From positions 440 to 28,630 of the IMG/VR virus record IMGVR_UViG_3300030328_003021: a stretch of 28,191 bases of DNA. One strand, written 5' to 3'. A program made the position numbers and the translations under genes. Of the stretch, positions 4,275 through 25,856 are shown in pieces. The notes below the pieces were generated by a model, which was given only the letters and a program-made list of their open reading frames with translations, had not been told where the DNA came from and made no database searches. The first letter of the stretch is position 1. Each line of letters opens with the position of its first letter. The stretch comes from a virus.

Positions 4275-5723
4275 ATGGCAATTACAAGTGCGAGTGGTAT
4301 AGATGCTGCTCCAAGAAAACAAACGTTGGCATCCAACTATGTAGACTTTACGTCTTCAGCTACAGAAGGATGGGCTCAACAATATTTACCAGACCTTATG
4401 GAGAAGGAAGCTGAGGTTTATGGTAAAAGAACAATCGCAGGATTTTTAGCTCAAGTAGGAGCTGAAGAGGCTTCTACATCTGACCGAGTAATTTGGTCTG
4501 AACAAGGTAGATTACATCTAGCTTATACATGTACATATCAAGATTCTAATAATACTTATGCTGTAGTAAACGACATGGATGGAAACAGTGTTACTACTAA
4601 TCATGGTCTTAGAGTTGGCGATATAGTTATTATGTCTAATGCTTCAGCTACAGCTAAAGGTTACATTTCAGCTGTTAACGAAGACGGTGATAACGCTGCT
4701 GAATTTACAGTTTTAGCTTATGCTGATGATCACATGACTTCTGCTGACGCTTTAAACTCTACATCAACTACTGCTGGAGCTCATAGAGTTTTAGTTATTG
4801 GTTCTGAATTTGAAAAAGGATCTGACGCAAGAACAGCTGCGAATGCTCCACAGTTTAAATCTCACTCTAATAAGCATTTAATCATGAGAGATTACTATGA
4901 AGTATCTGGATCTGACGCTTCTGCAATTGGTTGGGTTGAAGTAAGTGGTGAAGAAGGACAGAATGGTTACTTATGGTATTTAAAAGCTGAAGGTGATACT
5001 AGAGCTAGATTTACTGATTACTTAGAAATGACTATGTTAGAAGCTGAGACTGCACACGCTGACGCTGGTGCAATTGGTGGTACTGATGGTGGTGCTCTTC
5101 AAGATGGTACGCAAGGATTATTCCAAGCTATTACATCTAGAGGTCATTCAACTACTGGTATTACTGGTGTTAATGCTGCTACTGATTTAGCTGAATTTGA
5201 TGCTATCTTAGCTGTATTTGACGAGAATGGCGCTATTGAAGAAAACATGATGTTTGTAGATCGTTCTACTAGCTTAGCTATGGATGACATGTTAGCTTCT
5301 ATGAATTCTTATGGAGCTGGTGGTACTTCTTACGGAGTATTTGACAACTCAGAAGACATGGCGTTAAACTTAGGTTTCTCTGGTTTCAGACGTGGATCTT
5401 ACGATTTTTACAAATCTGATTTCAAATACTTAAATGACAAAGGTACGAGAGGTGGTTTAAATGATACTGTTAATGCAATTAGAGGTGTTGTTGTTCCAGC
5501 TGGTGTATCTTCTGTATACGACGAGCAATTAGGAAAGAATATGAAACGTCCTTTCTTACACGTTAGATATAGAGCTTCTGAAACAGAAAATAGAAAGTTA
5601 AAAACTTGGGTTACTGGTTCTGTTGGAGCTTTAACTTCAGGTGTTGACTCGATGCAAGTACACTATTTATCTGAAAGATGTTTAGTTACACAAGGTGCTA
5701 ACAACTTCATGTTAATGAACTAA
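4275..5723 (+). CDS. Major capsid protein
   Basis: This 482-residue protein is the likely shell subunit, presumably HK97-fold as in all tailed phages. It follows the scaffold gene directly, has the expected length for large podovirus capsid proteins, is rich in Ala, Gly, Thr and acidic residues, has no signal peptide, and ends in a beta-rich segment. Its own terminator follows, fitting a need for high expression. Residues about 108-155 look like an inserted beta module: HGLRVGDIV, then VNEDGDNAAEFTV at 134-146. That second motif closely matches LNPDGDNVKEFSV in both repeats of the 619-residue tail protein, which suggests a mobile surface domain placed on the capsid. The start is the first ATG of the frame behind an A/T leader. 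Confidence 0.85.
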   Translation: MAITSASGIDAAPRKQTLASNYVDFTSSATEGWAQQYLPDLMEKEAEVYGKRTIAGFLAQVGAEEASTSDRVIWSEQGRLHLAYTCTYQDSNNTYAVVNDMDGNSVTTNHGLRVGDIVIMSNASATAKGYISAVNEDGDNAAEFTVLAYADDHMTSADALNSTSTTAGAHRVLVIGSEFEKGSDARTAANAPQFKSHSNKHLIMRDYYEVSGSDASAIGWVEVSGEEGQNGYLWYLKAEGDTRARFTDYLEMTMLEAETAHADAGAIGGTDGGALQDGTQGLFQAITSRGHSTTGITGVNAATDLAEFDAILAVFDENGAIEENMMFVDRSTSLAMDDMLASMNSYGAGGTSYGVFDNSEDMALNLGFSGFRRGSYDFYKSDFKYLNDKGTRGGLNDTVNAIRGVVVPAGVSSVYDEQLGKNMKRPFLHVRYRASETENRKLKTWVTGSVGALTSGVDSMQVHYLSERCLVTQGANNFMLMN

Positions 5724-5736
5724 GCACAATTATTTT

Positions 5737-5785
5737 AAAAAGGGGGACGGCATACAAGCAAACGTTCTCCGTCCCTCTTTTTATT
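5737..5785 (+). terminator. Rho-independent terminator after the major capsid gene
   Basis: AAAAAGGGGGACGG (5737-5750) pairs with CCGTCCCTCTTTTT (5769-5782): 14 pairs including one G-U, an 18-base loop, and a T tract running into TTATTTTTT. It begins 14 bases after the capsid stop. This is the strongest intrinsic terminator in the window. It could end the portal-scaffold-capsid transcript or, if leaky, lower expression of the downstream genes relative to the capsid. Confidence 0.85.
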
Positions 5786-5813
5786 TTTTATTAATTTTAT
5801 TATATATTATATT
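5784..5813 (+). promoter_or_regulatory. AT-only leader after the capsid terminator (copy B)
   Basis: This pure A/T stretch lies between the capsid terminator and the ATG at 5814. It begins TTTTTTATTAATT and ends ATATTATATTATG, matching the leader at 3020-3048 at both ends. A fresh promoter right after a strong terminator would make sense, which raises the chance that this shared sequence carries promoter function. Codon-independent conservation between two unrelated genes is the only evidence. Confidence 0.45.
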
Positions 5814-6683
5814 ATGGCAAAGAAAACAAAAAAAGTGGTAGAACCACAAGTAGAAGAAAAGTTTGAAGAAACTTTTGAAGAAGTGGTGGTAGAAACACCA
5901 CCGGTTGTAGAACAACCAAAACCAAAAAAAGTTGAGACAAAATCAACAAATCCAGAAGACAATTGGGAGATTAAAGATAGAATGTATTATTTAACTGGTA
6001 ATAAATCACCACTAACTTATTTAATGAGAGGTAGTAATATTTATTATTTTGACGAAGAAAAAGGTTACGAAAGAGAATTAAAATATACTTCTAACCAAAG
6101 AACTTGTTTTGTTGACGAAATGAAAGGTGAGCAAAGATTAGAGCATATTATATTTAGAACTGGATCTTTAATGGTTCCAAAAAATAAAACTGTTTTACAA
6201 AAGCTTTTATCTTTATACCACCCTCATAAGGACAAATTATACAAAGAACATCAACCTAAGGTTATAGCTGAAAACGAAATTGACATATTAGAAATGGAAA
6301 TTGATGCTTTAAATGCAGCAAAAAATCTAGATATTGATATGGCTGAAGCGGTTATGCGTGTAGAAATTGGTTCTAAAGTAACAGAGATGAGTTCTAAGGA
6401 GCTTAGAAGAGATTTGTTATTATACGCTAAGAGAAATCCAGAATTATTCTTAGAATTAGTTAGTGATGAAAATGTTGTTCTTAGAAACTTTGGTATTAGA
6501 GCAACTGAAATGGGGATAATTAAATTATCTTCTGATCAAAGAACTTTTTTATGGGGATCTAACGATAGAAAACTAATGAACGTTCCTTTTGATGAACACC
6601 CTTATTCAGCTTTAGCCGCTTGGTTTAAAACTGATGAAGGAATGGAGATATACTCCAATATAGAAAAACGATTCAATTCGTAA
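5814..6683 (+). CDS. Conserved virion-associated protein of unknown function
   Basis: This 289-residue protein has two parts. Residues 1-48 are a Lys/Glu/Val/Pro-rich, probably disordered tail. Residues 49-289 are compact: a beta-rich part starting NWEIKDRMYYLTGNKSPLTY, an acidic helical stretch around 150-185 (EIDILEMEIDALNAAKNLDI), and a C-terminal part with SSDQRTFLWGSNDRKLM and PFDEHPYSALAAWFKT. I recall similar sequences in marine phage structural regions, but no function can be named. Its place just after the capsid gene suggests a head-completion, decoration or assembly role. There are no membrane segments and no recognisable catalytic motif. Confidence 0.6.
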   Translation: MAKKTKKVVEPQVEEKFEETFEEVVVETPPVVEQPKPKKVETKSTNPEDNWEIKDRMYYLTGNKSPLTYLMRGSNIYYFDEEKGYERELKYTSNQRTCFVDEMKGEQRLEHIIFRTGSLMVPKNKTVLQKLLSLYHPHKDKLYKEHQPKVIAENEIDILEMEIDALNAAKNLDIDMAEAVMRVEIGSKVTEMSSKELRRDLLLYAKRNPELFLELVSDENVVLRNFGIRATEMGIIKLSSDQRTFLWGSNDRKLMNVPFDEHPYSALAAWFKTDEGMEIYSNIEKRFNS

Positions 6684-6689
6684 TCAATC

Positions 6690-6729
6690 TGTAGTAGCGA
6701 TCGCCCTACGGGGCGATTGTTATACTACA
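6690..6729 (+). terminator. UACG-capped hairpin without a T tract
   Basis: The outer stem TGTAGTA (6690-6696) pairs with TACTACA (6723-6729). After a small asymmetric internal loop, GATCGCCC (6699-6706) pairs with GGGCGATT (6711-6718), closing a TACG loop. C(UACG)G is the very stable UNCG tetraloop. The sequence begins 7 bases after the preceding stop and is GC-rich in a very AT-rich region, so selection is likely. An A run, not a T run, follows, so it is not a standard intrinsic terminator. It could instead be an RNA-stability or processing element, and being only 12 bases upstream of the next ATG it could affect that start. Confidence 0.55.
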
Positions 6730-6741
6730 TAAAAAAAAATT

Positions 6742-6900
6742 ATGAAATCTAAAGGATTAGGCGATTCAATAGAAAAAATAACAAAAGCAACTGGGATAAA
6801 AAAGGTGGTTGATAAGGTTAGTGAAACTACCGGGAAAGATTGTGGTTGTAAAAAAAGGAAAAAAGCGTTAAACAAGCTTTTTCCATATAATAATAAATAA
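6742..6900 (+). CDS. 52-residue basic CGC-motif protein, unknown function
   Basis: This short ORF lies in the otherwise unexplained gap between 6683 and 6902. It starts with ATG behind an A9 run and ends with TAA one base before the next ATG. The protein has an N-terminal amphipathic part (GLGDSIEKITKATGIKKVVDKV), then DCGCKKRKKALNKLFPY near the C-terminus. The Cys-Gly-Cys pair followed by a basic helix and Leu-Phe-Pro-Tyr looks constrained rather than random, and I recall similar small proteins in marine phage virion regions. CGC could bind a metal or form a disulfide, but two cysteines alone do not make a zinc finger. Exact fit between its neighbours, the local start context and the composition support a real gene. 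Confidence 0.72.
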   Translation: MKSKGLGDSIEKITKATGIKKVVDKVSETTGKDCGCKKRKKALNKLFPYNNK

Positions 6901-6901
6901 T

Positions 6902-7585
6902 ATGGTAAATATAGATACGGTATATCAAAAAGTTTTAGCATTAGCTAATAAAGAACAAAGAGGTTATATAACTCCTCAAGAGTTTAATTTATTTGCTAAT
7001 CAAGCACAGAAAGAAATAATAGATCAATATTTTTACGATATAAATCAATTTGGTAGATTACACGGTAACGATACTGAATATTCTGATATGCTAGAATTAT
7101 TAGATGAAAAATTAAGTGTTCTTAAAAGTAGTAGAACTGAAGCTGTTACTCAAGGCGTTATTCGAGTAACACCTGATGTTTATAGAATTGGATCTATAAT
7201 TGATGGTAATATAGAGATAGAACCAATAAATTACAACGAATATAAGTTAAGAAATTTATCTCCGCTTACGCAACCAACACTAAAAAGACCTGTGTATGTA
7301 AAAACAGGTGGTACAATAAACATATATCCCGACACTATTACAAGTGTATTTTTATCATACATTAAAACCCCGGCAAACCCTTCATGGGGATATATTATTG
7401 CAAATGAAAAACCACTTTACAACTCTGATCCCAATGTGTCACAAGATTTTGAATTACACCCGTCAGAAGAAAGCGAACTGGTATATAGAATATTGGCTTT
7501 AGCTGGTATTGCTATAGAAAAACCGCAATTAACCCAAGTAGCTGTGGGATTAGAAGGGGCAAAACAACAACAAGAAAAAATATAA
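6902..7585 (+). CDS. Head-tail connector (ring/adaptor) protein candidate
   Basis: This 227-residue protein starts with a helical bundle (VYQKVLALANKEQRGYITPQ, then FNLFANQAQKEIIDQYFYDI). The middle is beta-rich (residues 85-160), and a helical C-terminus ends in EGAKQQQEKI. Helix-beta-helix with this size is usual for podovirus adaptor or tail tubular A-like proteins that bind below the portal. The next gene has a similar plan (N-terminal helices, beta core, C-terminal helix with RRERFAAIRTAKLR), so the two may form stacked rings. It overlaps nothing; the preceding small gene stops one base upstream. A family cannot be fixed by eye. Confidence 0.55.
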   Translation: MVNIDTVYQKVLALANKEQRGYITPQEFNLFANQAQKEIIDQYFYDINQFGRLHGNDTEYSDMLELLDEKLSVLKSSRTEAVTQGVIRVTPDVYRIGSIIDGNIEIEPINYNEYKLRNLSPLTQPTLKRPVYVKTGGTINIYPDTITSVFLSYIKTPANPSWGYIIANEKPLYNSDPNVSQDFELHPSEESELVYRILALAGIAIEKPQLTQVAVGLEGAKQQQEKI

Positions 7586-7589
7586 ATAA

Positions 7590-8927
7590 ATGGGATTATT
7601 AGATAATACTACGCAAAGTGAATACTATCAAGGTAATGATTATGGCAATTATCAATTCGTTTCTTTAGATGATATTATAACTCAATTTCAAATTGGTTAT
7701 GTTGGTGAAGATAAAATAATATCTAAAATAAAAAGAACTGATATTGCTTTTCATGCTCAAAGAGCAATGCAAGAATTAAGTTTTGATACTTTTAAATCAT
7801 TCAAAGCACAAGAAATAACAGTGCCAGCAACACTACAAATGACACTTCCGCAAGATTATGTTAATTATACTAAAATATCTTGGGTAGATACAGCTGGTAT
7901 AAAACATCCATTATATCCTACTAATAGAACTTCAAATCCTACAAATCCATTACAAAATTCTGATGGAGATTTTGAAATAACTGCAATTGGAACTTTAGTT
8001 GATAGTTCTAGTTCGATTGAATTAGACGCAGAGTATAAAAATATAAAAGTTGGTATGATAGTTAGTGGTCCATATATACCGATAACTCCATCTAAAACTT
8101 ACGTAGCATCTACATCTAATTCTAGTAATATAACTACTGTAACGTTAGAAGATGTTAATGGGAGCGCGGTGCTTCCAACTCAAAGTAACTCAGGAACAAC
8201 TTTATCATTTAAAAATAAAGATGGTTCTTTAATTTTAGAAAAACAATCTTCTCATGTAGTAGAGAATTTATCTTGGAATGTTAGTGATTATAAAATAACA
8301 GGAACCGCTTCTGAATTAACTAATATAAAAGTTGGTATGTTAGTGTCTCATGATAATTTTCCAGAAGGAACAATGGTAACAAACGTTTATACAACTACTA
8401 TAGTTACATCTGCATTACCAGATACAGCTGTAGCTTCTGGTGGTGAAGTTACTTTTATATCTCCAAATTCAGAATCTGATACTTGGTCGAATTACAAATC
8501 AACAACACCATCCGAAAATAATAATGATGATTACGAAGATGATGTTTACTGGCCTTTAGATGGTGAAAGATACGGTCTTGATCCTCAACACGCTCAAGTT
8601 AACGGATCTTTTTATATAGATCAACAATCAGGGAAAATACATTTTAGCTCTAATATATCTGGTAAAACAGTTGTTTTAGACTATATAAGTGATGGTTTAG
8701 GTACAGATGACGAGATGCAAGTTCATAAATTTGCAGAAGAAGCAATGTATAAATCTATAGCCTATTCTATAATGTCAACAAGAGCAAACGTACCACCTTC
8801 GCAAGTCAATAGACTTAGAAGAGAAAGATTTGCTGCTATAAGAACAGCAAAGTTAAGATTATCAAATATTAAATTAGAAGAATTAACTCAAGTATTAAGA
8901 GGTAAATCAAAACAAATAAAACACTAG
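7590..8927 (+). CDS. Second head-tail connector/tail adaptor with inserted beta modules
   Basis: This 445-residue protein has an N-terminal helical part (DDIITQFQIGYVGEDKIISK, then FHAQRAMQELSFDT), a strand with LPQDYVNYTKISWVD, and a helical C-terminus (HKFAEEAMYKSIAYSIM, then RRERFAAIRTAKLRLSNIKL). These are features of gp4/gp11-type adaptor proteins. Between about residues 130 and 310 a beta-rich insert holds two related units: NIKVGMIVSG at 151-160 and NIKVGMLVS at 245-253, each followed by Thr/Val-rich strands and a glycine-led closing strand. The same KVG[MD]xV unit occurs in the 619-residue protein and the capsid protein. The insert may face outward on the tail collar. The start lies 4 bases after the preceding stop. 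Confidence 0.6.
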   Translation: MGLLDNTTQSEYYQGNDYGNYQFVSLDDIITQFQIGYVGEDKIISKIKRTDIAFHAQRAMQELSFDTFKSFKAQEITVPATLQMTLPQDYVNYTKISWVDTAGIKHPLYPTNRTSNPTNPLQNSDGDFEITAIGTLVDSSSSIELDAEYKNIKVGMIVSGPYIPITPSKTYVASTSNSSNITTVTLEDVNGSAVLPTQSNSGTTLSFKNKDGSLILEKQSSHVVENLSWNVSDYKITGTASELTNIKVGMLVSHDNFPEGTMVTNVYTTTIVTSALPDTAVASGGEVTFISPNSESDTWSNYKSTTPSENNNDDYEDDVYWPLDGERYGLDPQHAQVNGSFYIDQQSGKIHFSSNISGKTVVLDYISDGLGTDDEMQVHKFAEEAMYKSIAYSIMSTRANVPPSQVNRLRRERFAAIRTAKLRLSNIKLEELTQVLRGKSKQIKH

Positions 8928-8930
8928 TAT

Positions 8931-11900
8931 ATGCCAGAAATCAAGCATACTTTTACCAGTGGTAAAATGAACAAGGATTTCGACGAAAGACTTGTTGCGA
9001 ACGGAGAGTATAGAGACGCTATGAACATACAGGTGTCTACTTCAGAAGGTTCTGACGTAGGTACTGTTCAAAATATATTGGGTAATAAAAAAGTTGATGG
9101 GCAAGGAGAGATATTTCCTGACGCAGCAGTTGGTCCTCAAGCGTCTGGAAACTTAATACCTGAAAACCCAACTTGTGTTGGTGCTGTTGTAGATGAAAGT
9201 AACGATACTTTATATTGGTTTTTAGCTAGTGATAATAAAGACGTTATATTACAATTAAAAAACCAAGCTAGTTCCTCTGCTAATAAAAAATTAATAACAA
9301 CTGTTCTTGTAGATGTAAATAAAAACACATTAAAGTTTGATCCTAACAAAATCATAACTGGTATTAATATTATCGATGGTATGTTAATTTGGACTGATAA
9401 TATTAACGAACCTAAAAAAATAAATATTCAAAGATGTATAGACGGTACAAATAGCGTTGCTGTTCAAACTAGACTAATCAACGAATCTCAAAATATTGAT
9501 TTAAGTTCAAACATCGAAATAGAAGAGAAGCATATAACTGTTATTAAAAAATCTCCTTCAATATCCCCTAAACTAGAATTACAATCAGAAAGATTTAATA
9601 CTCAAGGTAAAGTGTATACAGCTGTGATGAAAATTACAGGACCATTTGCTGGTACTAGTAATAATTCGTCGTTTTATAGTAGCACTACCACTCCTACAAG
9701 ATATGATTTTTCTAGTATAAGTTTAGGTCAAGAGTTGTTTGTAGAATTAGAAACTGATGTAAATGGAAACTCTAGTTTTCGTTTAGATTGGGAAGTCGGT
9801 GATATTATACTTATAAAAGAATTTATAGGGAACAATGCGCCTGCTACACCAATGACAAACTATAGAATAAAGGCAAAAATAACTAGTTTTAACTCAACTG
9901 ATAATAGAGTTAAATTTGAAATTTTAGCTATCAATGGAACACCACCATCAGTTGCTCAAGGTCAAACAGAGTTAAAATATGCTATAGATAAACAAGATGA
10001 TGAAGAAAATTTATATGAATTTAAATTTCCAAGATTTGCTACTAGATACAAATACGAAGATGGTGAATATTCTGCATTCTCTCCTTTCACTCAAGTAGCA
10101 TTTTTACCTGGCGCTTTTGATTATCATCCTAAAAAAGGTTATAATTTAGCCATGACCAATAGACTTAAAAAAGTTATTGTTAAAAGCTACGCATTAAGAC
10201 AACACACTCCATCTGATGTTGTTTCTATAGATATATTATACAAAGAAGAAGGTTCTAATAATGTTTACGTTGTAGATAGTATAAAATCAGCGGATTGGGG
10301 AAATGATTATGTTATTGAATCCGAAACAATAAGTAGAGTTTTACCAGAGAATCAACTTTTAAGACCATGGGATAATGTTCCAAGAACTGCTTTAGCTCAA
10401 GACATCGTTGGTAATAGAGTTGTTTATGGTAACTATACTCAAGGATATGATTTGTTAAATATAGATAATTTAGACTATAATCTTGATGCTAATTTTTCTT
10501 TTGTAAATAATGACGTAAGTTCTGCTTATAACAAATCTATAAAATCATTAAGAGAATATCAATTAGGTGTAGTTTTTGTTGATAAATACGGTAGAGAAAC
10601 ATCTGTTATATCAAAATCAAAAAACACAAAAAAGCTAAACAAAATATTTAGTGACAAAGCAAATGCTATAAATGTTGCTTTTAATGACACTAGGTACATG
10701 AAAGATATGAAGTACTTTAAGTTTTATATAAAAGAAACTTCTAGCGAGTACTATAATTTAGCTATGGATCGTTTTTGGGACGCTGACGATGGTCACGTGT
10801 GGGTTTCTTTCCCATCTTCTGATAGAAACAAATTAACTATTGACGATTTTTTAATTCTTAAAAAAGGTGTAGAATCTAATACTCTTGTTGAAGATCCTGC
10901 TAGATATAAAGTATTAGCTATAGAAAACGAAGCCCCTGATTTTATAAAAACTAAAAAGACATTAATCGAAGAAAAAACACATATTTTTGCTTCTAGTAAT
11001 ATTTTTGGAAACACTTTAACTAGTGCCCCTATTTCTGGTCGTGATTATTTTGATATGATTTACGAAGAGTTTGCGGATAGTAGTGGTGCTGATTTAGATA
11101 AAATTACCGATGGTGATCTTTACGTTGAGTTTGGTCAAGTAGGACAAGGTTTTAGAAGTGAAAGATATAGAATAGCTGAGATTCGTGGTAATTTCAGAAC
11201 CACTACAACGCCTTCAACTCGTATTTATAGTATAAAATTAGATACAGCGTTAGGGGAAGATGTTGATTTTATAGAAAACGGTGGTAGTATTATTGATGAT
11301 GCTATAGTTAATATATATAAATATAAAGTTGAAAACTCACCTCAATTTGATGGTAGATTTTTTGTTAAATTACTAAAAGACGATATATTTACTAGTAATA
11401 TAACTAATAATGTTGGAAGAGATTCAGATTATAGAGTAATTGCTTCTCAAAAGTTATATTATATGAATGGCGCAACGCATAATACTACTCATCAAAGAAG
11501 TCGAACTGGACTTGGTGATCAGAGCAGTAGCGCTGTTTATGGAGCCACTGGTCCTTTTACCAACGATTTTGGTAAATTTGCACCATTTTTTAGAGATTAC
11601 ACTGCGGGTAATAGCACTTCAACAAACAGTGTCGCAAGTAGATATGCTTTTGGTAATGATAAAAATGATTCTAATGGAAATTGGAGAAAAGAATTTGATT
11701 TAATAAATAGCACGTCTTACAGTAGTTTCAATACTATTACAGATTTAAAGAAAGCAGATAAAACAGCTATAGATGAAAAAGTTTGGTTTATAGATGGTGG
11801 TAATTTCAAAGCTAGTACAAACGGTAACGATTTAGATTGGACAAATATTAACACAACACCTGGAACGAACGTTGGTATACTTGAAAGTACTACGCCTGGT

Positions 11901-14669
11901 TCTACGTCTAGTTTAAATTTAGCTCTTGGCGGTATATTTGACGAATTTGTTTGTGGATTTCCTACTTTTACTAAAATTAATGAGTACTTTAACATAGGAA
12001 AAAATAACGGTAATTCAAATTATCAAGATAATAACACAATAACTTTCGTTGAACAAATTAATCCTGCTAGAAAATTTTGGTTTAAAGAAGACCCTAATAA
12101 AAATATATACACAATACAGCCTACAATTCCTGAGCAACAACTTTTAAGATACTCTCATGGTAATTACCCGTCACCTTTAGCAAACATCGCTCCATTACAA
12201 GTAGTTGATAATGACGCTCAGTTATCACCAAACTTCACAAAAAATTGGAATTTAAGAATACAAAATGAAAGTGGTGATGGTACTATAGCTTGGAATCCTG
12301 TTGGCGCATTAGGACCTATAACTGGTGGTGTTGATATTACACTTACTGGTGAAAATGGTGGTTTAATTAACAATGGTCAAAATACTTTCAACGCTAGAAT
12401 AAAACTAAGTACACTAACAGCTATAGATCTAACAACAGGTGTTAACTATACTATTCAAGAGGACGAACCTTTAATATTAACGAGTTATGTAGATGCTAGT
12501 GGAACTGAAACCTTAAATGGTACTGGTACAACTCAACCTTTATTAGTAGATAAAATTACACAAGTAGGTGGGGATTATATTATTGATTTAGTAGGTTACG
12601 AAAGTATATTAACTAATGGTCATAAGATTTTTACTGATCTACCCGTGAGTGGTAGCATGACGTTTAGACAACCCACAATGAATGGTTATAGTCAATTTTC
12701 TGCAAATAGAATAAACATGCATTCACAAGCAGCATCGTTAACAAATCCTCAATTAGGGGCTGTAGGTTATACTATAGAATTTATCGATTCAATAGAACTT
12801 GAAGGTGAATTACCAGATAACCCAGCTGTTTGGGAAACGGAACCAAAAGATTTAGTAGATTTAGACGTTTATTACGAAGCTAGTAGTTTAAACCCAATAA
12901 ATTTAACTGATGATGTTTTAGAATTGGCCATACCTATAGGTGCAAATGTAACAGGTACTGTGGGTACTGGTGCAACTTCTACACCTGGTTCGCTTCCAGT
13001 TGGAACAACTGTTGCAAATATAACCTCTTCAGGTTCGTTAACATTAAACGCGACTTCATCATCTTGGGCTGTTGATATTACAACTGATGATAAAATTAAA
13101 ATAGAAAAACCAGATGGTTCTTATATAAACTGCAAAGTAATAAAAACGCCTATAGCCTCAGCTCCAAGTACAATTGTTATAAGTCCTGAGCTATATGGTC
13201 CAAATACAACTTATGATTTAAATTGGCATAATTGTTATTCTTTTGGTAATGGTGTAGAGTCTAATAGAATTAGAGATAATTTTAATTTACCTTATATATT
13301 AAATGGTGTTAAAGTTTCTACAACACTAGAAGAAGGAGACTATAAAGAAGAACATAGAAAATATGGTTTAATATATTCTGGTTTATATAACAATGTTAGT
13401 GGTATAAATAATTTAAATCAATTTATTGCAGCAGAAAAAATAACCAAAGATATAAACCCAATATATGGTAGTATACAAAAACTCCACACAAGAGATACAG
13501 ATTTAGTAACTTTATGTGAAGACAAAGTGTTAAAAATATTAGCTAGAAAAGATGCTATTTATAATGCTGATGGTAACCCACAGTTAACAGCTACAGAAAA
13601 TGTTTTAGGACAATCTATTCCTTTTTCTGGTGAATATGGTATTTCTAAAAATCCAGAATCATTTGCTTCAGAAAATTATCGAGTATACTTTACTGATAAA
13701 GTAAGGGGAGCGGTAATGAGGTTGTCAATGGATGGTTTAACACCAATATCCGATCATGGTATGAAAGATTGGTTTAGAGATAATTTAAAACTTGGTAATA
13801 AAAAATTATTAGGTAGTTATGATGATAGTAAAAATAATTATAACTTAACTATAGTAGGAGATATTTTAGATAATAAAATATCAACAACAGTTTCTTTTAG
13901 TGAACATGTTAGAGGATGGGTTAGTTTCAAATCATTTATTCCTCAACACGCTATTAGTATGGCTAATGAATATTATACTATTTGCGATGAGGATTGGATT
14001 GATAAAGATTCAAATACTTTTTACGGTAATTATACCAACTCAACTATAGATGTTTTATTAAATGATATGCCTAGCAATATAAAATCGTATCATACTTTAG
14101 AATATGAAGGTACTCAGTCTAAAACGAGTATTGATGGAGCTTTTAGTGGCCTTGGTTGGTATGTTAGCACGATAGAAACGGATAAAGAAAAAGGTAGTTT
14201 AAAAGAGTTTATAGAAAAAGAAGGTAAATGGTTTAATTATATAAAAGGAATCAACGAGTCGATAAACGCAAATACAGATTTTGCCATATCTAGCATACAG
14301 GGTATTGGTATTTTAGGAAAGGTAAGTGGTGGTGACACTTTGGTTTTTACTAGCTACATAAACATGTCTTTGCAAGTAGGTGATGTTATATATTTCCAAA
14401 CACCAAATACATCTGGTAATTTTACAACAATAGACACTGATACTATACAAGAGTTTGGTACAGTTTCTGAAATAACAGATTACACTGTGACAGTTAGCGC
14501 GGTTGTAAACACCCCAAGTCAAGGAGATTATATATTGTTTGCTAAAGATAGACTTGTAAACACATCTAGCTTAAGAGGTTATTTTGCATCTGCAAAATTT
14601 GAAAACGATTCTAAAGAATACGCGGAACTTTTCGCGGTTAGTTCTGAAATAACAGAAAGTAGTAAATAA
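8931..14669 (+). CDS. Very large tail protein (tail hub/nozzle, stabilisation type)
   Basis: This 1912-residue protein is one of the two largest in the window. Its N-terminus (HTFTSGKMNKDFDERL, then NGEYRDAMNIQVS and SEGSDVGTVQNILGN, residues 4-51) is a signature I associate with phage tail stabilisation or nozzle proteins that begin a beta-propeller-like fold. The body is beta-rich with no membrane segment. A later conserved-looking block at about 1584-1620 contains YFTDKVRGAVMRLSMDG and HGMKDWFRD. Around 1340-1385 a Thr/Ser/Gly-rich unit with PVGTTVANIT and SLTLNATSSSW resembles the beta module found in neighbouring proteins. The C-terminal 110 residues form another small beta domain ending LFAVSSEITESSK. 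Size and place after the connectors suggest the T7 gp12/P22 gp10 or crAss-like muzzle role. It may also carry receptor-contact domains, since no separate fibre is obvious. Confidence 0.6.
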   Translation: MPEIKHTFTSGKMNKDFDERLVANGEYRDAMNIQVSTSEGSDVGTVQNILGNKKVDGQGEIFPDAAVGPQASGNLIPENPTCVGAVVDESNDTLYWFLASDNKDVILQLKNQASSSANKKLITTVLVDVNKNTLKFDPNKIITGINIIDGMLIWTDNINEPKKINIQRCIDGTNSVAVQTRLINESQNIDLSSNIEIEEKHITVIKKSPSISPKLELQSERFNTQGKVYTAVMKITGPFAGTSNNSSFYSSTTTPTRYDFSSISLGQELFVELETDVNGNSSFRLDWEVGDIILIKEFIGNNAPATPMTNYRIKAKITSFNSTDNRVKFEILAINGTPPSVAQGQTELKYAIDKQDDEENLYEFKFPRFATRYKYEDGEYSAFSPFTQVAFLPGAFDYHPKKGYNLAMTNRLKKVIVKSYALRQHTPSDVVSIDILYKEEGSNNVYVVDSIKSADWGNDYVIESETISRVLPENQLLRPWDNVPRTALAQDIVGNRVVYGNYTQGYDLLNIDNLDYNLDANFSFVNNDVSSAYNKSIKSLREYQLGVVFVDKYGRETSVISKSKNTKKLNKIFSDKANAINVAFNDTRYMKDMKYFKFYIKETSSEYYNLAMDRFWDADDGHVWVSFPSSDRNKLTIDDFLILKKGVESNTLVEDPARYKVLAIENEAPDFIKTKKTLIEEKTHIFASSNIFGNTLTSAPISGRDYFDMIYEEFADSSGADLDKITDGDLYVEFGQVGQGFRSERYRIAEIRGNFRTTTTPSTRIYSIKLDTALGEDVDFIENGGSIIDDAIVNIYKYKVENSPQFDGRFFVKLLKDDIFTSNITNNVGRDSDYRVIASQKLYYMNGATHNTTHQRSRTGLGDQSSSAVYGATGPFTNDFGKFAPFFRDYTAGNSTSTNSVASRYAFGNDKNDSNGNWRKEFDLINSTSYSSFNTITDLKKADKTAIDEKVWFIDGGNFKASTNGNDLDWTNINTTPGTNVGILESTTPGSTSSLNLALGGIFDEFVCGFPTFTKINEYFNIGKNNGNSNYQDNNTITFVEQINPARKFWFKEDPNKNIYTIQPTIPEQQLLRYSHGNYPSPLANIAPLQVVDNDAQLSPNFTKNWNLRIQNESGDGTIAWNPVGALGPITGGVDITLTGENGGLINNGQNTFNARIKLSTLTAIDLTTGVNYTIQEDEPLILTSYVDASGTETLNGTGTTQPLLVDKITQVGGDYIIDLVGYESILTNGHKIFTDLPVSGSMTFRQPTMNGYSQFSANRINMHSQAASLTNPQLGAVGYTIEFIDSIELEGELPDNPAVWETEPKDLVDLDVYYEASSLNPINLTDDVLELAIPIGANVTGTVGTGATSTPGSLPVGTTVANITSSGSLTLNATSSSWAVDITTDDKIKIEKPDGSYINCKVIKTPIASAPSTIVISPELYGPNTTYDLNWHNCYSFGNGVESNRIRDNFNLPYILNGVKVSTTLEEGDYKEEHRKYGLIYSGLYNNVSGINNLNQFIAAEKITKDINPIYGSIQKLHTRDTDLVTLCEDKVLKILARKDAIYNADGNPQLTATENVLGQSIPFSGEYGISKNPESFASENYRVYFTDKVRGAVMRLSMDGLTPISDHGMKDWFRDNLKLGNKKLLGSYDDSKNNYNLTIVGDILDNKISTTVSFSEHVRGWVSFKSFIPQHAISMANEYYTICDEDWIDKDSNTFYGNYTNSTIDVLLNDMPSNIKSYHTLEYEGTQSKTSIDGAFSGLGWYVSTIETDKEKGSLKEFIEKEGKWFNYIKGINESINANTDFAISSIQGIGILGKVSGGDTLVFTSYINMSLQVGDVIYFQTPNTSGNFTTIDTDTIQEFGTVSEITDYTVTVSAVVNTPSQGDYILFAKDRLVNTSSLRGYFASAKFENDSKEYAELFAVSSEITESSK

Positions 14670-14675
14670 AATAAT

Positions 14676-16535
14676 ATGGCAAAAGTAATTAAAGATTTAA
14701 TTATAGATTTAGGTAGCATAGCTTATGCTGGAGAACAAAGATCTTTCTCTGTAACAGGGGATGATGGTGCAATATTTTCTTTAGAAGTAAAAAATGAAGA
14801 TGGTTATTATTATAATTTTGACACACAATTATTTGCATCAACTCCTAAGAAATTAAAAAATAAAAAAATAACTGGTGGTATTTTTGAAAGTAGTATAAAA
14901 TTCCCAACAGTAACAGATGATGATCAATACGATATATATCTTCATGCAGAATCTATACATGACACTACTCACGTGGATTATTCAGAAGTTAGGTTTGGAG
15001 ACGGAAGTATTGATATAAATTCATCTAAAGGTTCAAACTCTAATTTACTACAAAAAGTATTATATCAATATGCTGACACAGTAGTTACTCTTAGTGCTAC
15101 TGCTCCTGCAGTACTTCGTGGCACGACAGATTTTACAGGTACAACTGTTACAACCGATACTATCACTGTTGGAAGAGGAAAAAGTATTGGTAAAACAGCT
15201 TTTTCAGTTAGTGTGTTAGCAGCGACAACAAAAGCTTTTCAAATAAACAGGCAACCTGTGGAAGATGATTTAGTAGCTTTTACAACAGCAGTTTTTGGAG
15301 ATCCAGTACAGATATATAGAGAAAACATTTGGGCTGGAACAGCGAGAAACACAGATACTGTAGATGGAGATTTTTCTGGTGGAACTACTAAAATAGTTAT
15401 GGATAGTAACGTTGCCACTAAAATGAAAGTGGGTGATAGGGTTACAGGTACAGGTATATCTAGTTCTGCTGTTGTTACTGTATTGGCTTTAAACCCAGAT
15501 GGTGACAATGTGAAAGAGTTTTCTGTTTCAGAGGCAGTTGAAATTAACGATGGAGTTACATTAACATTTACCGCGCCTCATTATTATAGGTGGAATGTTG
15601 CTGCAGCTAGTAGTCTACATAAGTTAGCAGAGGGAATGATATATGTTGATTCTGATTGGCCTGATGTTGATAGAATATCAATATCATCTTACGAAGATAA
15701 AACAACATATACAACAGAGACTCATAACGAGGATGGTACGATTACAGAAGTTGAAAATGAAACCGTGCATGTGAGTTTACCAGGAATCGACCCATTAGGT
15801 TATAAACCAACAATTACAAACGGAGTTGTTACGAAACAGTTAGGTAACATAACTTTTAGTGATCAAGTTATAAACGATGTAGACGATACAAATAATAAGT
15901 ATTTTTACGGTTATGGTCCGAGTATGATAAAAGTTATTAATAATTGTACTGTTAAATTAAGTGATTTAAAAGTAACATTAACAAAACCAATTACATATAC
16001 AACTAGCACTGTCAGTGATAGTACGACTATAGCTGTTGCGGATAGAGAAGGTACAATAGCAAACGTTTCTACTGTTAGTGGTATAGGTATAGGAATAAGT
16101 CATACTGATACTGTAGATGGAAATTTTGCGATAGCAACTAAAATAGTAATGGATAATAATGTTGCTGGTCACATGAGAGTAGGTGATATAGTTACTGGTC
16201 TTGGAATTCCTAAATCTTCTACTGTAACAGTAGTAGCTTTAAATCCAGACGGAGATAATGTGAAGGAATTCTCTGTTTCAGAAGCAGTGACAATAGCTAC
16301 TGGAACCACTTTAACTTTTAAACCACAATCCTCACCAGTTGTTACAAGCTCTACAGCGGATGGCGCTGGTAATTGGACGGTTGACGTAGCACAAACACTA
16401 GAAAGCGGTGCAGTATTAACAGTTGATAACACTAGTAGAGTAGCAACGATAACTGGTAATATTGAATTGATAAACGTAGAAGATGCAAGTTTTGCTTTGT
16501 ATTTTGATATAGAAAAGTTCTTAACAGCATCGTAA
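14676..16535 (+). CDS. Beta-rich virion (tail appendage) protein with duplicated module
   Basis: This 619-residue, almost all-beta protein has no signal peptide or membrane segment. Residues 1-125 form a distinct N-terminal part (KVIKDLIIDLGSIAYAGEQR, then YDIYLHAESIHD), probably the virion attachment domain. Two copies of one module follow at about 227-299 and 478-549, each with KVGD/RVGD, VTGxGI, a Val/Thr strand, LNPDGDNVKEFSVSEAV and a closing TLTF strand. Between them is a segment with HYYRWNVAAASS and a His-containing turn. Its place between the giant tail protein and the internal proteins, plus modular beta repeats, suggests a tail appendage or decoration protein. Receptor binding is possible but not shown. 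No enzymatic motif was found. Confidence 0.55.
   Translation: MAKVIKDLIIDLGSIAYAGEQRSFSVTGDDGAIFSLEVKNEDGYYYNFDTQLFASTPKKLKNKKITGGIFESSIKFPTVTDDDQYDIYLHAESIHDTTHVDYSEVRFGDGSIDINSSKGSNSNLLQKVLYQYADTVVTLSATAPAVLRGTTDFTGTTVTTDTITVGRGKSIGKTAFSVSVLAATTKAFQINRQPVEDDLVAFTTAVFGDPVQIYRENIWAGTARNTDTVDGDFSGGTTKIVMDSNVATKMKVGDRVTGTGISSSAVVTVLALNPDGDNVKEFSVSEAVEINDGVTLTFTAPHYYRWNVAAASSLHKLAEGMIYVDSDWPDVDRISISSYEDKTTYTTETHNEDGTITEVENETVHVSLPGIDPLGYKPTITNGVVTKQLGNITFSDQVINDVDDTNNKYFYGYGPSMIKVINNCTVKLSDLKVTLTKPITYTTSTVSDSTTIAVADREGTIANVSTVSGIGIGISHTDTVDGNFAIATKIVMDNNVAGHMRVGDIVTGLGIPKSSTVTVVALNPDGDNVKEFSVSEAVTIATGTTLTFKPQSSPVVTSSTADGAGNWTVDVAQTLESGAVLTVDNTSRVATITGNIELINVEDASFALYFDIEKFLTAS
15354..15570 (+). 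repeat. Intragenic module copy 1
   Basis: First copy of an approximately 216-base duplicated coding module. It encodes DTVDGDF, an IVMDSNVATKMKVGD stretch, VTGTGIS, then LNPDGDNVKEFSVSEAV (residues 272-288) and TLTF. The second copy starts at 16107, residue 478. Third-position changes between copies are plentiful while the protein is well kept, so this is an old duplication under selection, not a recent copying event. Confidence 0.85.
16107..16320 (+). repeat. Intragenic module copy 2
   Basis: Second copy of the module at 15354-15570. It shares DTVDG, the KIVMD.NVA..M.VGD.VTG.GI series and an identical LNPDGDNVKEFSVSEAV (residues 522-538). The intervening 536 bases are unrelated to the module. 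Confidence 0.85.
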
Positions 16536-19097: not shown

Positions 19098-22000
19098 ATG
19101 TTTGAATACAAAGGAGTAGAATACTCAAGAGAACAACTTGTTGACGCTGCCAATAGATACAATAATGGAGATTTTGAGGGATATTTAGAAGATATGAAAA
19201 ACAAAGGTCTTGTGGAAAAGCAAGCCGGCTCGACGGGAGACCCGACGATGAGCCAAAGAAGTATGGGGTCAGATTTGGAAACTGGTTTTTCGGAGCCAGT
19301 AAGTTGGTTTGATCAAACATGGTTTGGTAGAGGTATAAAAGCAGCTAGCACGACTGGTGAAGCCACAAATTTAATGTCTGAAAACTTTTCTAATATAAGT
19401 AGCGAAAGTATACAAGATTTTATTAAAGCTAAAGAACAGGAAGCTAGTACATATGTTGAATCTGAACGTATGAAAAAGTTTCAAAAAAAATACAAAGAAG
19501 AAGGTAGCACGTGGTCTGCTTTTTTTAGAGGTGTAAGAGAACAACCTGGTTTATTACCAGAACTATTTGTACAGTCATTAGGTACTCAAGTTGGTACATT
19601 AATAGATTCACCTGGCGCTTCAATTGCTGCAGCTGGAACTGGAGCTGCTAGTGGAGCTGCTGTTGGAGCAATACCTGGTGCTGTTGCTGGATTTATGGGT
19701 GGTTTAGCTACTTCAATGGAAGCTGCTCTAACTTTTGGCGAGTTAATAGAAACTCGATTAAAAGAAAAAAATCAAGAATTTACTGATGAAAACATAAGAG
19801 CTTTATTAGAATCAGAAGGTAGAGAGATAAGAAACAAAGCTTTAGGTAGAGGTTTAGCTATTGGTACTATAGAAGGTTTGTCTGGTGGTTTAGCTGGTAA
19901 AGCAGCTGTAGCTACTAAAGGTGTAGTAAAAGGGGCTAGAAAAGGTGTTGTTGGAGCTGGTGCTGCTGGTGTTGGTGTTGAGGCTGTTGGTGGTGCGGCT
20001 GGTGAAATAGCTGGTAGAGCTGTAGCTGGTCAAGAAATGGATGCTGCTGAAATTGGCTTTGAAGCTATAACAGGTACTGTAACTGCGCCTGTAAATGTTT
20101 CTGCAGCTTTATTAACAGCAAAACAACCTACATATAGATTAAACGGTGAAAGTGTTACGTACGAGCAAATGAAAGATTTTGTTGATACAGCTGATGATAT
20201 GGATGTTGCTAAAGCTGATATTAAAATGGAAAATGATTTTACTGGTATTGGTAAAAAAGCACAAGCAAAACAAGAGGCTGCTATAGAAGGTATAAAGTTA
20301 TCTGGTGATGAAGCTACAATAGCTGAAGTTGCTGACGCTAGAGCTGAGATAAAATTTCAAGATAATATGGAGTTTGCTAAAAAACATAGTAAACTTTATG
20401 GTTTAAAATTTACTGAATTAACTCAAGAAGAAATACAAGAAAGATTTAAAGATACTAAAAATTCTGAGTTATCAGAATCGTTAGGTGGTGTTATTGGTGA
20501 CGAAATAATAATAAACAAAGATTTAGCAAAGACTAAAGTTTTTGGTGACAACGTAGGTAATCACGAGCTGTTACATGGTATAATTAAAGCTAGCAAAGCC
20601 AATATAACACAAGATACTATAAATGATTTTTTAAATATTATAGGTAAAGAAAATGAAGCTATAATTCAAAAAAGAATTGATGATAATTACGATGCTGATT
20701 ACATGTCTAAAAATTTAGATGAATACTTTACTATATTTTCAGATGCTATAGCCAATGGTGATGTTAAATTTAACGATAGCATGTTTACTAAAATACAAGA
20801 TGTTATCAGAAGAATGTTCGCTAGTATTGGTATTGCAAATGTAGATTTTGAAAACGCAAGAGGTGCTTATAATTTTTTAAAAGACTATAATAAAAGTATA
20901 CACAAAGGAACTTTAAGCAAGGGTCTTAAAAAAGCAACAACAGGAACAGCTGTATTTGAAGATGCTGTTTTTTCTAAAGCGCCAGAAACATTAATTAAAA
21001 CAATAAAAAGAGGTAAAAATGCTAAAAAAGTTAAAGCTGCTGAAGACGCTTTAGTGCCACAATACCAAGCTTTAGCTTTAGAAGCTTTAGGTTATACAGA
21101 GAAAAAAGGTGATATACGTAGGGAAAACGTTGTGTCTGCTATTAATGAATACTATGAAGCTATTGTAAGAAATTACGATCCTAAAAAAGGTGCATTTTCA
21201 ACTCACGTTTATAATAATATAGCTCCTAAAAATGATACTATATTTGAAAAAGCTAAAACATTAGCTATACGTGAGGGCGTTAAACTTGACGCACCAGAAG
21301 TAAAAGAATTAGCTGGCGACGTGGGTGTAACTACAAACCTTGAAGATACATTTGTACAAAAAATAAATATACTTAAAGATTTTGCAATAACAGATAATAT
21401 TGCTAGTAAAATAAAAGCATTAATTAAAGTAGCGGAAGGCGACACGTTTAAACAGGTAATATCTAAGTACGCTGGTAAAGTTGGTGAACTTGTATTTGGT
21501 ATTCCTGCTAAAAAAATTATGGATAGTAAGGCTAATTTAATACCTACAACAAAATATAAAGAAGGTATGCCTATCCCAGCTGAAGCACAAAATATACAAC
21601 GATTTTTTCAAGCTGGAGAAAACATGAGTAAGTTTATAAAGTCATTACCACTTTATAATGTAGCTGATAAAACTGCTGACATAGATAAAATAGGTGAAAA
21701 CATAGAAACGCCTAGAAATGTTTTTGGTGTGGCTATTGGTTTAAAGGGCTTACCATTAGATTATTTTTACGAAAACTATACTGATCCAAAAGCATTTAGT
21801 AAAGATCCTAAAATTTATGAACAAAGAATAACGTCCAAAAGCGGTAGAAGTAGAGGCGTATCAACACAAACACAAGTTAAAAGATTAAAAGCAGAGTTTA
21901 GAAATCCCACAACTGAAACTATTGAAAAAGCTAAAAGAGATATAGGTATAACACCTAGAAACGAATCAAATATATACAATAGAGATATTGGTCAATTACA

Positions 22001-25000
22001 AAAAGGTTTCGCTAAAGTATATTCTATAAACGCATCGTTGTCAGGCGCTCAAAGATTTTTAGCTGATAAACTTAAAAAAGCACCAGCAGAAAAGAAACCA
22101 GCTATTAAAAAACAAATAGCAAGTGTTACAGCGGCGCAAGGTAAAGCTGCTTTTAGTAAAAGTATTGAAAACGTAGAGCAAATTATATCTATAAATGACA
22201 TTTTTCAATTAGAAACAAAAGGTATAGATGGCGTTTTAAAGTTTTTTAAAATTAATAAAAGTTATAATATAAAAACAGAAGAAGGCAGAAAAAAATTTTT
22301 AAAAGCAATAGAAACAAAATTACTCCCACTATTACCAAAAGAGTTTTGGATGAGTCAATCCGGTATTGATGTATTTACTGGTAGTAATGCTAATTACGGT
22401 TTGAGTATGTCTGAAACATATAAAGGCTCTGGTGTTTACAAAAATCCTACTGAAGCTAAAGCTTACAATAAATTTAGAAAAGATGTTAGAGCTCTTATAA
22501 AAAACCACAAAAACTTTGGTAAACCAATTAATAATGCTAATTGGAATATTGACAAAATATACACAACTGTTTTTGGTAATAAAAATACTTATAAAACAAA
22601 GCTTAAAGATACTAAAAGAATTAAAAAATGGAATAAAGATATAGCTTTAATTCATAAAGAAATGTGGAGTCGTTTTAATGAGGCAATTAAAAACGATGAA
22701 ACGGGTGAGTTAGCTGGAATTATAGGTACTTATTTAAAACTTACGGCTAACGATAAAAAGTCTTGGCATAGATTAGGCGCTCAAATAGCTGGTTACTCTA
22801 AAGAAATAAGTAAAAGAAAAAAAGGAGAAGCTAATATAGAGTTTGAACATGCTATGCCAGCTACAGCGGCTTATCTTTATTTAATGGATAGCATATTAAG
22901 AGATGGTGTTGATTTTAACACAGCTTATGATCTTGTTATTGATAATTACAAGCTAATAGTTTTAGATAAAGCTATGGACGATAAACTAACCAGTGCTAAA
23001 ACGGCAAAAGGTTATAGCTTACAAAAACGCATGCCAGACGATTGGAGTCTTATAGAAAACAAATGGTGGGAAAGGTACTTTAACAATATTGTAAACAATG
23101 TTGATGGTGGTATTGATCCAAGCTCTATAATAAATTTGGATGGCAAGACGTTTGCGGAAACTTTTAATATTAAAAAACCTATAACAAAACCAAACCTTAA
23201 TAAAACTAAAACACTTAATAAGGCTGGTAAGTTTTCTAGATCTAGCCAAAACGAACCTAAAGGTATTACCGTTTTAGATTTTGACGATACTTTAGCTACA
23301 ACTAAATCATTAGTTAAATTTACTACGCCAGAAGGCGAAACTGGTACTTTAAACGCTGAAGAATACGCTAGCACATATGAAGATTTACAAGATAAAGGTT
23401 ATACATTTGATTTTTCTGATTTTAATAAAGTTGTAAAAGGTAAGTTAGCGCCTTTATTTAATAAAGCAATAAAATTACAAGGTAAGTTTGGTCCTGAAAA
23501 TATGTTTGTTTTAACAGCTAGACCACCAGCTGCTCAAAAAGCTATATTTGATTTTTTAAAAGCTAATGGTTTAAACATACCTATTAAAAATATAACTGGC
23601 CTTGGTAATTCTACAGCGGAAGCTAAAGCGTTGTGGATAGCGGATAAAGTTGGTGAAGGTTTTAATGACTTTTATTTTGCTGATGATGCTTTACAAAATG
23701 TACAAGCTGTTAAAAACATGTTAGATCAGTTCGATGTTAAGTCTAAAGTTCAACAAGCTAAAGTTAAGTTTAGTAAATCAATGAACGAAAACTTTAACGA
23801 TATATTAGAAGAGGTAACTGGTATTGACACTAAAAAACGTTTTTCAGATATTAAAGCTAGAAAGCGTGGTGCTAGTAAAGGTAAGTTTAGATTTTTCATA
23901 CCACCGTCACACGAAGATTTTGTAGGATTATTATATAACTTCATGGGTAAAGGTAGAAGAGGTGATCAACATAGAAACTTTTTTGAACAAGCTTTAGTTA
24001 GACCATTGAATAGAGCATATAGAGAAATAGATACAGCTAAACAAGCTATAGCAAACGACTATAAAGAGCTAAACAAACAATTTGGAGATGTTAAAAAGAA
24101 ACTTACAAAGAAAACTCCAGATGGTGATTTTACATTTGAAGATGCTATAAGAGTTTATTTGTGGAATAAACATGGTTACGATATACCTGGTTTATCACCA
24201 ACTGATCAAACTAACTTATCAGAACTAGTAATGTCTGATCCTCAACTACAAGCGTATGCAGAAACTTTAAATGTAATATCTAAACAAGATACTTACGTAG
24301 ATCCAGGTAAAGGCTGGGAAGGTGGTAATATAAAAACTGATTTAATAGATGCTACTGGTAGAGTTGGTAGAGCTGAGTACTTTGCAGAGTTTAACGAAAA
24401 CGTTGATATATTATTTTCAGAAGAAAATTTAAATAAAATTGAAGCTGGTTACGGTAAAGATTTTAGAAGCGCATTAGAAGATATGCTTCACAGGATTAAA
24501 ACTGGAGTTAATAGACCAAAAGGACAAAGTGGCACTATAAATAAATTTATGAATTATTTAAATGGTTCTGTTGGTACGGTCATGTTCTTTAACGTTAGAT
24601 CTGCTATATTACAGCAAATGTCTATTGTAAACTATATAAACTTTGCAGATAATAATATGTTTGCTGCTGCTAAAGCTTTTGCTAATCAAAAACAATACTG
24701 GAAAGATTTTGCATTTATATTTAACTCAGACATGTTAAAACAAAGGCGTGGTGGTATTGGTACAGATATTAACGGTGCTGATCTTGCTCAAGCTGTAGCT
24801 GGTTCTAAAAACCCAACTAAAATAGTTATAAGTAAACTTTTAAAATTAGGTTTTTTACCTACTCAAATTGGTGATAATATTGCAATTGCTACTGGTGGCG
24901 CTACGTTTTATAGAAATAGAATAAACAAATATATTAAAGATGGTTTAAGTCAAAAAGAAGCAGAGGCAAAAGCTTTTACTGATTTTCAAGATTTAACGCA

Positions 25001-25856
25001 GTCAACACAGCAGTCTTCAAGACCTGATATGAGTTCACAACAACAAGCTAGTTGGATAGGTAAATTAGTTTTGAACTTTCAAAACATTACGTCACAGTAT
25101 AATAGAATAATTAAAAAAGCTGCATCAGATATATATAACAGAAGAATTACACCGCCTTACACCACTCAAGCACAAAGTGATTTAGGTAATTTATCTAAAA
25201 TACTATACTATGGTGGTATACAAAACGTTATATTCTATGGTTTACAAACAGCTTTATTTGCGGTAATGTTTGATGATGATAAAGATGAAGATCAAATATT
25301 AAAGAAAAGAGAAAGAGTTATAAACGGCAGTATTGACTCGATATTAAGAGGTTCTGGTATATATGGTGCTGTTATTTCTACGTTAAAAAATACTCTTATT
25401 AAATTTAAAGAGCAAAGAGAAAAAGGTTATAACAAAGATGAAAGTGCTGTACTAATGGAGTTGTTAAACTTTTCACCTGTTGTTGGTATTAAAGCTAGAC
25501 AAATAGTTAACGCTGAAAAAACTATTAATTATAATGAAAACGTTATGAGTGAAATGCGAACGTTTGAGGCTGATAATCCACAATGGTCAGCTGTTACTAA
25601 TTATACTCAGGCTTTAACTAATTTTCCAGCAAATAGATTGTATCAAAAAAGTATAAACATGCGTAATGCGCTAGATAAAGATTATACTAATTTCCAAAGA
25701 GTAATGTTTTTTAGTGGTTATACAACTTGGAGTTTAGGTTTAGGTGATAACGAAAGAATTATTGAAGCAAAAGAAAAAGCTAAAATAAACAAAAAGAATA
25801 AAAAGAAATCAACAAGAACAAGAACAAAAACTAGAACTAGAACAAGAACACGATAA
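19098..25856 (+). CDS. Giant multidomain (polyvalent-type) ejected virion protein
   Basis: This 2252-residue protein probably travels in the virion and enters the host with the DNA. In order: a short conserved-looking head (1-40); two Gly/Ala-rich, membrane-like segments (about 175-215 and 275-315); a zincin-like domain with HELLH at 489-493 and possible third ligand E542; a stretch resembling sigma-70 region 2 (about 645-705, NYDPKKGAFSTHVYNNI at 692-708); an unassigned domain with FEHAMPATAAYLYLMD near 1249-1264; a HAD domain with DFDDT (1394-1398), TARP (1473-1476) and ADD (1528-1530); a long helical region (about 1585-2220) of the sort found at the end of phage polyvalent proteins; and a Lys-rich, Thr-Arg repeat tail. 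FSKA, FSKS, FSRS and FSKS at 625, 1019, 1379 and 1558 lie near domain borders. No RNA polymerase or lysozyme motif was found. Domain calls are by motif only. Confidence 0.75.
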   Translation: MFEYKGVEYSREQLVDAANRYNNGDFEGYLEDMKNKGLVEKQAGSTGDPTMSQRSMGSDLETGFSEPVSWFDQTWFGRGIKAASTTGEATNLMSENFSNISSESIQDFIKAKEQEASTYVESERMKKFQKKYKEEGSTWSAFFRGVREQPGLLPELFVQSLGTQVGTLIDSPGASIAAAGTGAASGAAVGAIPGAVAGFMGGLATSMEAALTFGELIETRLKEKNQEFTDENIRALLESEGREIRNKALGRGLAIGTIEGLSGGLAGKAAVATKGVVKGARKGVVGAGAAGVGVEAVGGAAGEIAGRAVAGQEMDAAEIGFEAITGTVTAPVNVSAALLTAKQPTYRLNGESVTYEQMKDFVDTADDMDVAKADIKMENDFTGIGKKAQAKQEAAIEGIKLSGDEATIAEVADARAEIKFQDNMEFAKKHSKLYGLKFTELTQEEIQERFKDTKNSELSESLGGVIGDEIIINKDLAKTKVFGDNVGNHELLHGIIKASKANITQDTINDFLNIIGKENEAIIQKRIDDNYDADYMSKNLDEYFTIFSDAIANGDVKFNDSMFTKIQDVIRRMFASIGIANVDFENARGAYNFLKDYNKSIHKGTLSKGLKKATTGTAVFEDAVFSKAPETLIKTIKRGKNAKKVKAAEDALVPQYQALALEALGYTEKKGDIRRENVVSAINEYYEAIVRNYDPKKGAFSTHVYNNIAPKNDTIFEKAKTLAIREGVKLDAPEVKELAGDVGVTTNLEDTFVQKINILKDFAITDNIASKIKALIKVAEGDTFKQVISKYAGKVGELVFGIPAKKIMDSKANLIPTTKYKEGMPIPAEAQNIQRFFQAGENMSKFIKSLPLYNVADKTADIDKIGENIETPRNVFGVAIGLKGLPLDYFYENYTDPKAFSKDPKIYEQRITSKSGRSRGVSTQTQVKRLKAEFRNPTTETIEKAKRDIGITPRNESNIYNRDIGQLQKGFAKVYSINASLSGAQRFLADKLKKAPAEKKPAIKKQIASVTAAQGKAAFSKSIENVEQIISINDIFQLETKGIDGVLKFFKINKSYNIKTEEGRKKFLKAIETKLLPLLPKEFWMSQSGIDVFTGSNANYGLSMSETYKGSGVYKNPTEAKAYNKFRKDVRALIKNHKNFGKPINNANWNIDKIYTTVFGNKNTYKTKLKDTKRIKKWNKDIALIHKEMWSRFNEAIKNDETGELAGIIGTYLKLTANDKKSWHRLGAQIAGYSKEISKRKKGEANIEFEHAMPATAAYLYLMDSILRDGVDFNTAYDLVIDNYKLIVLDKAMDDKLTSAKTAKGYSLQKRMPDDWSLIENKWWERYFNNIVNNVDGGIDPSSIINLDGKTFAETFNIKKPITKPNLNKTKTLNKAGKFSRSSQNEPKGITVLDFDDTLATTKSLVKFTTPEGETGTLNAEEYASTYEDLQDKGYTFDFSDFNKVVKGKLAPLFNKAIKLQGKFGPENMFVLTARPPAAQKAIFDFLKANGLNIPIKNITGLGNSTAEAKALWIADKVGEGFNDFYFADDALQNVQAVKNMLDQFDVKSKVQQAKVKFSKSMNENFNDILEEVTGIDTKKRFSDIKARKRGASKGKFRFFIPPSHEDFVGLLYNFMGKGRRGDQHRNFFEQALVRPLNRAYREIDTAKQAIANDYKELNKQFGDVKKKLTKKTPDGDFTFEDAIRVYLWNKHGYDIPGLSPTDQTNLSELVMSDPQLQAYAETLNVISKQDTYVDPGKGWEGGNIKTDLIDATGRVGRAEYFAEFNENVDILFSEENLNKIEAGYGKDFRSALEDMLHRIKTGVNRPKGQSGTINKFMNYLNGSVGTVMFFNVRSAILQQMSIVNYINFADNNMFAAAKAFANQKQYWKDFAFIFNSDMLKQRRGGIGTDINGADLAQAVAGSKNPTKIVISKLLKLGFLPTQIGDNIAIATGGATFYRNRINKYIKDGLSQKEAEAKAFTDFQDLTQSTQQSSRPDMSSQQQASWIGKLVLNFQNITSQYNRIIKKAASDIYNRRITPPYTTQAQSDLGNLSKILYYGGIQNVIFYGLQTALFAVMFDDDKDEDQILKKRERVINGSIDSILRGSGIYGAVISTLKNTLIKFKEQREKGYNKDESAVLMELLNFSPVVGIKARQIVNAEKTINYNENVMSEMRTFEADNPQWSAVTNYTQALTNFPANRLYQKSINMRNALDKDYTNFQRVMFFSGYTTWSLGLGDNERIIEAKEKAKINKKNKKKSTRTRTKTRTRTRTR
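25812..25853 (+). repeat. Six-base coding repeat encoding a Thr-Arg/Lys tail
   Basis: Seven consecutive ACN + AGA/AAA/CGA units encode (TR)2-TK-(TR)4, residues 2239-2252 of the giant protein, and run to its stop codon. A Lys-rich stretch precedes it. Codon variation (ACA/ACT, AGA/AAA/CGA) shows it is not a fresh slippage product. Confidence 0.85.

Follow-up and report, generated by a model that had tools for sequence, protein, structure and literature searches.

Small β modules of one family have quite probably been inserted and swapped in the connector, tail and muzzle-like proteins of the marine phage analysed here and its relatives, with the similar-looking stretch of the capsid protein belonging instead to a barrel of the capsid's own. 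Two forms of the module are distinguished below, module A in a 619-aa tail-region protein and module B in the connector, in the muzzle-like protein and, among relatives, in a ring protein.

The window, i.e. the whole stretch of DNA that was analysed, is 28,191 nt long and makes up nearly the whole of a 28,630-base viral record. It corresponds to the block of structural genes in a marine phage related to the Cellulophaga and Flavobacterium podoviruses (Callevirus, Elemovirus), and its neck and muzzle genes are of the crassvirus type. The genes run in the order portal, scaffold-like, capsid, 289 aa, 227 aa, 445 aa and 1912 aa, parallel to that of phi38:1 and its relatives, and cultured Flavobacterium, Cellulophaga and Maribacter phages have similar capsid, portal and connector proteins. 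The major capsid protein (482 aa; 4275–5723, + strand) matches PHROG 13704, a virion structural protein, with E 9e-97, and structural proteins of cultured Flavobacterium and Maribacter phages are 38–46% identical to it. The 227-aa ring protein (6902–7585, +), which carries no module in the window, was named from its hhalign alignment to crAss001 gp34 of rings 4/5 (probability 75, E 2.5e-5; top among 20 proteins). The 445-aa protein (7590–8927, +) matches PHROG 13977 (E 5e-48) and lies directly upstream of the muzzle-like gene; it gave no match to the crAss001 ring and muzzle proteins, and its designation as connector follows gene order only. In the muzzle-like protein of 1912 aa (8931–14669, +) the Pfam domain crAss_MUZ_C, the crassvirus muzzle C-terminal domain, was found above cutoff at residues 1693–1772 (E 1.8e-7), and the protein also aligns to the crAss001 muzzle gp44 (hhalign probability 82). 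Since most relatives encode its final 110 residues (14337–14666) as a stand-alone gene of about 120 aa, the muzzle-like protein seems to be fused to its downstream neighbour in the window. The tail-region protein (619 aa; 14676–16535, +) has relatives at 14 IMG/VR loci and carries two A modules; its AlphaFold2 model has a mean pLDDT of 81, and Foldseek matched mainly the N-terminal domain, to alpha-2-macroglobulin-type domains. Further downstream, a 2252-aa ORF (19098–25856) contains a DFDDTLA motif, judged by eye to be of the HAD type.

The initial annotation pointed to recurring strings in four of these proteins, and all of them were found where it placed them. The capsid protein has VGDIV at residue 114 and VNEDGDNAAEFTV at residues 134–146, the 619-aa protein has VGDRV at 252 and VGDIV at 502 with LNPDGDNVKEFSV after each, the 445-aa protein has VGMIV at 154 and VGMLV at 248, and PVGTTVANIT starts at residue 1356 of the 1912-aa protein. 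In an all-against-all BLASTP of a tiny set of 16 window proteins, run without composition correction, the capsid protein was matched by each of the two copies in the 619-aa protein, with E 2e-4 and 5e-4, and a match between the 445-aa and 619-aa proteins had E 0.002. These matches, like those of the B profile given below, exceed chance, but the segments fall into two groups.

Module A comprises 71 residues (DTVDG...KVVMDNNVA..MAVGDRITG...VTVVALNPDGDNVKEFSMSEAVAIADGVTLTF) and is present at residues 228–300 (15357–15575, +) and 479–549 (16110–16322, +) of the 619-aa protein. Copy 2 is not a recent duplicate, since only 137 of 201 bases are identical to copy 1. At the 41 loci where module A was detected every copy belonged to an orthologue of the 619-aa protein, the site inside the protein differing, as found by a scan with two peptide patterns only, which other contexts could escape. 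The model of copy 1 matches residues 102–178 of the tail tube of phage Mystique (PDB 9n71, chain A) with Z 9.6 and an rmsd of 1.9 Å over 71 residues at 20% identity, although Mystique is of another phage type and host and sequence profiles alone give no clear connection. Searches of Pfam and PHROGs with module A returned chance-level matches only, the A or the B alignment gave no clear match among PDB sequences, and cultured phages searched with module A and with the connector insert gave none, for which the low-complexity filter is possibly responsible. In several relatives of the 619-aa protein (L160, 3714–3868; L174, 10540–10694; L009; L010) half-modules are repeated, the VGD or the DGDN half recurring about 35–40 residues away.

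Module B was defined by a profile of 94 diverse phage examples. It occurs twice in the connector, at residues 130–210 (7977–8219, +; i-E 5e-10) and 235–288 (8292–8453, +; i-E 1e-8), and as a partial copy covering half the profile at residues 1356–1386 of the muzzle-like protein (12996–13088, +; i-E 1.6e-4). In two relatives (L085 and L088) a B module is found inside the ring protein (i-E 6e-12) and the connector site is empty. The signature GMxVxGxxIPxGTxV was present in at least 120 stretches in a scan of IMG/VR, in ORFs from 210 to 3788 aa, and going by this signature module B is very common among phages. It resembles the solved phage decoration protein 8eci (chain 1), which shares its signature (E 0.0024, the query being a consensus drawn up in this analysis); 8eci is a free-standing decoration protein, whereas module B is here an insert of the connector.

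When the A and B profiles were aligned to each other, the hhalign score was 23.5 against a mean of 7.5 and a maximum of 11.2 for 60 shuffles, with a nominal probability of 55. By these profile comparisons modules A and B and the partial copy in the 1912-aa protein belong to one family. The proposal of at least five copies of one module over four virion genes does not hold as it stands: the segments of the 619-aa, 445-aa and (in part) 1912-aa proteins go together, and the capsid stretch stands apart from them. Small β domains that are inserted into or appended to virion proteins and variably present are likewise known from the promiscuous Ig-like and other accessory domains, for which weak carbohydrate binding has been proposed (Fraser et al. 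2006, as cited in PMC8718954). The A/B family differs from the Ig-like domains in being shorter (about 70 aa) and in its signature GM/GD-V-G...IP-GT, and no Ig-like Pfam match was found in the modules, an absence that counts as weak evidence.

The capsid segment was analysed in its structural context. In the AlphaFold2 model of the capsid protein the sole confident part is a six-stranded barrel at residues of about 81–178 (4515–4808, +), with pLDDT values of roughly 70–83 against a mean of 39 for the whole model. The crAss001 capsid has a barrel, the I-domain, inserted in its E-loop at residues 79–180 (PMC10172136), and because the two positions coincide we read the barrel of the window as an I-domain of the crassvirus type. 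This assignment of an approximately 100-residue barrel at the same place in the capsid is likely, the E-loop placement being deduced from residue numbering, although a sequence comparison of the whole capsid protein with crAss001 gp32 gave no match. A Foldseek search with the capsid model returned nothing under E 0.1, and the structural matches to six-stranded barrels include the phage VP1 capsid 9in6 at residues 61–157, with a Z of 7.0 that is under the clear level of the tool.

The initial annotation proposed that head, connector and tail are all decorated by one homologous surface module that can be transferred; the common ligand that it suggested, such as a host glycan, is purely conjectural. 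The best matches of an A-module HMM beyond the 619-aa family, among about 1000 ORFs, were capsids bearing the DGDN turn (E 8e-5 to 1e-3), and the models of the capsid barrel and of the A module in the 619-aa protein both have six strands in similar order. The score of capsid against A was 18.0 compared with a shuffled maximum of 16.5, and 25.0 compared with 16.5 when close relatives only were used. However, the signal of the A-module HMM drops to E of about 0.3–1.5 on capsids with an altered turn, and the alignment is local, spanning 15–31 columns; with the diverse capsid profile it is reduced to 15 columns with a probability of 3.5. The likeness is confined to the VGDxV strand and the length-variable DGDNxxEF turn, the latter being part of the hairpin VNEDGDNAAEFTV (4674–4712, +), which is 4–5 residues shorter in many capsid relatives. 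Capsid and B did not match when the B profile was used, and their hhalign score of 9.5 was reached in 12 of 60 shuffles. Finally, the barrel is not an optional insert: the VGDIV...EFTV stretch was aligned in 85 of 85 capsids, including the window and cultured phages without the DGDN turn.

A module shared by head, connector and tail is thus unlikely, and the reading of the capsid as another copy is weakened by the profile tests, i.e. the turn-dependent match to A, the 15-column alignment and the B score within the shuffles. On present evidence the segment belongs to the capsid protein's own barrel as an integral element kept throughout the family, and since it is found in every aligned capsid, at the place of the crassvirus I-domain, we do not regard it as transferable. 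Transferability holds for the connector, the ring protein of relatives, the muzzle-like protein and the tail protein, and a common module for connector and tail, but the head has to be taken out of both statements. Given the above-shuffle scores and the similar strand order, module A and the capsid barrel may have a very old common origin.

Separate small β modules that are inserted and swapped can be followed at the connector site. Cultured relatives align to the 445-aa connector at both ends only, the middle being absent. Among 45 connectors including that of the window, 16 had an empty site, 13 carried one or two B modules, 10 a jelly-roll-like insert and 6 another insert, the jelly-roll-like and other classes being assigned by a simple sequence rule. 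Neither of these two classes gave a clear Pfam or PDB match, and a jelly-roll identity of the alternative inserts was not adopted. The insert class differs in 31 of 44 pairs with 90–99.5% identical capsids (the pairs are non-independent and the count has no tree behind it), and the capsids of one such discordant pair are 99.0% identical.

Could the inserts simply have been inherited vertically and at times lost, without exchange between phages? The two-copy insert of the window recurs in L016, which has the nearest capsid, and would fit such a history. The site, however, holds four kinds of content scattered over the range of capsid similarity, as seen without a tree, and capsids that are 95% identical go with B or with jelly-roll-like inserts, while the capsid of L084 is 78% identical and yet its B insert is 65% identical. 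We therefore find purely vertical inheritance quite improbable; as far as the sequences tell, the connector and tail modules are truly exchangeable modules of an already known kind.

The DGDN hairpin itself was compared between the two gene families. A 12-residue motif, searched as a degenerate DNA pattern in 2.9 million viral contigs, was found in 45 stretches, 44 of them in capsid or 619-aa homologues of the window's phage group. The exception, L171, has the hairpin DPDGDNANEFTV after a VGDIV strand (11772–11806), in a protein that matches the 619-aa protein weakly (E 2.6e-6) and by eye looks like another capsid type. The hairpin in the capsid and 619-aa families may have arisen by convergence towards a turn that is favourable, or stem from an old relationship. 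That DGDNxxEF acts as a micro-module, favoured by selection in capsid barrel and tail modules alike because of a common interface (a metal site, for instance, or a partner protein of both), is improbable. Copying of the hairpin between the capsid and 619-aa genes by local recombination would agree with the narrow distribution of the motif but is very unlikely, since codon agreement at identical residues is no higher between the two genes than codon usage predicts (0.549 versus 0.530, compared with 0.660 versus 0.543 within capsids), which makes recent copying or gene conversion improbable, and since the same hairpin is written in other codons in L171, another protein.

Collectively, the data are consistent with small β-rich modules of one widespread phage family being inserted at tolerant sites of virion proteins, and the comparison of related phages shows that such modules are gained, lost and exchanged. 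Exchange would most likely proceed by recombination in the conserved sequence flanking the connector site. By precedent, it is most likely that neck and tail display the modules on their outside, where these would modulate weak binding to the cell surface or strengthen the assembly. A caution follows for annotation, as short signatures like VGDxV alone do not equate a capsid barrel with a decoration module. In this abundant group of marine phages the connector contains a hypervariable swap site, at which phages that are nearly identical differ in a domain that is probably exposed, and its inserts would provide a natural series for asking what the decorations of the neck do.
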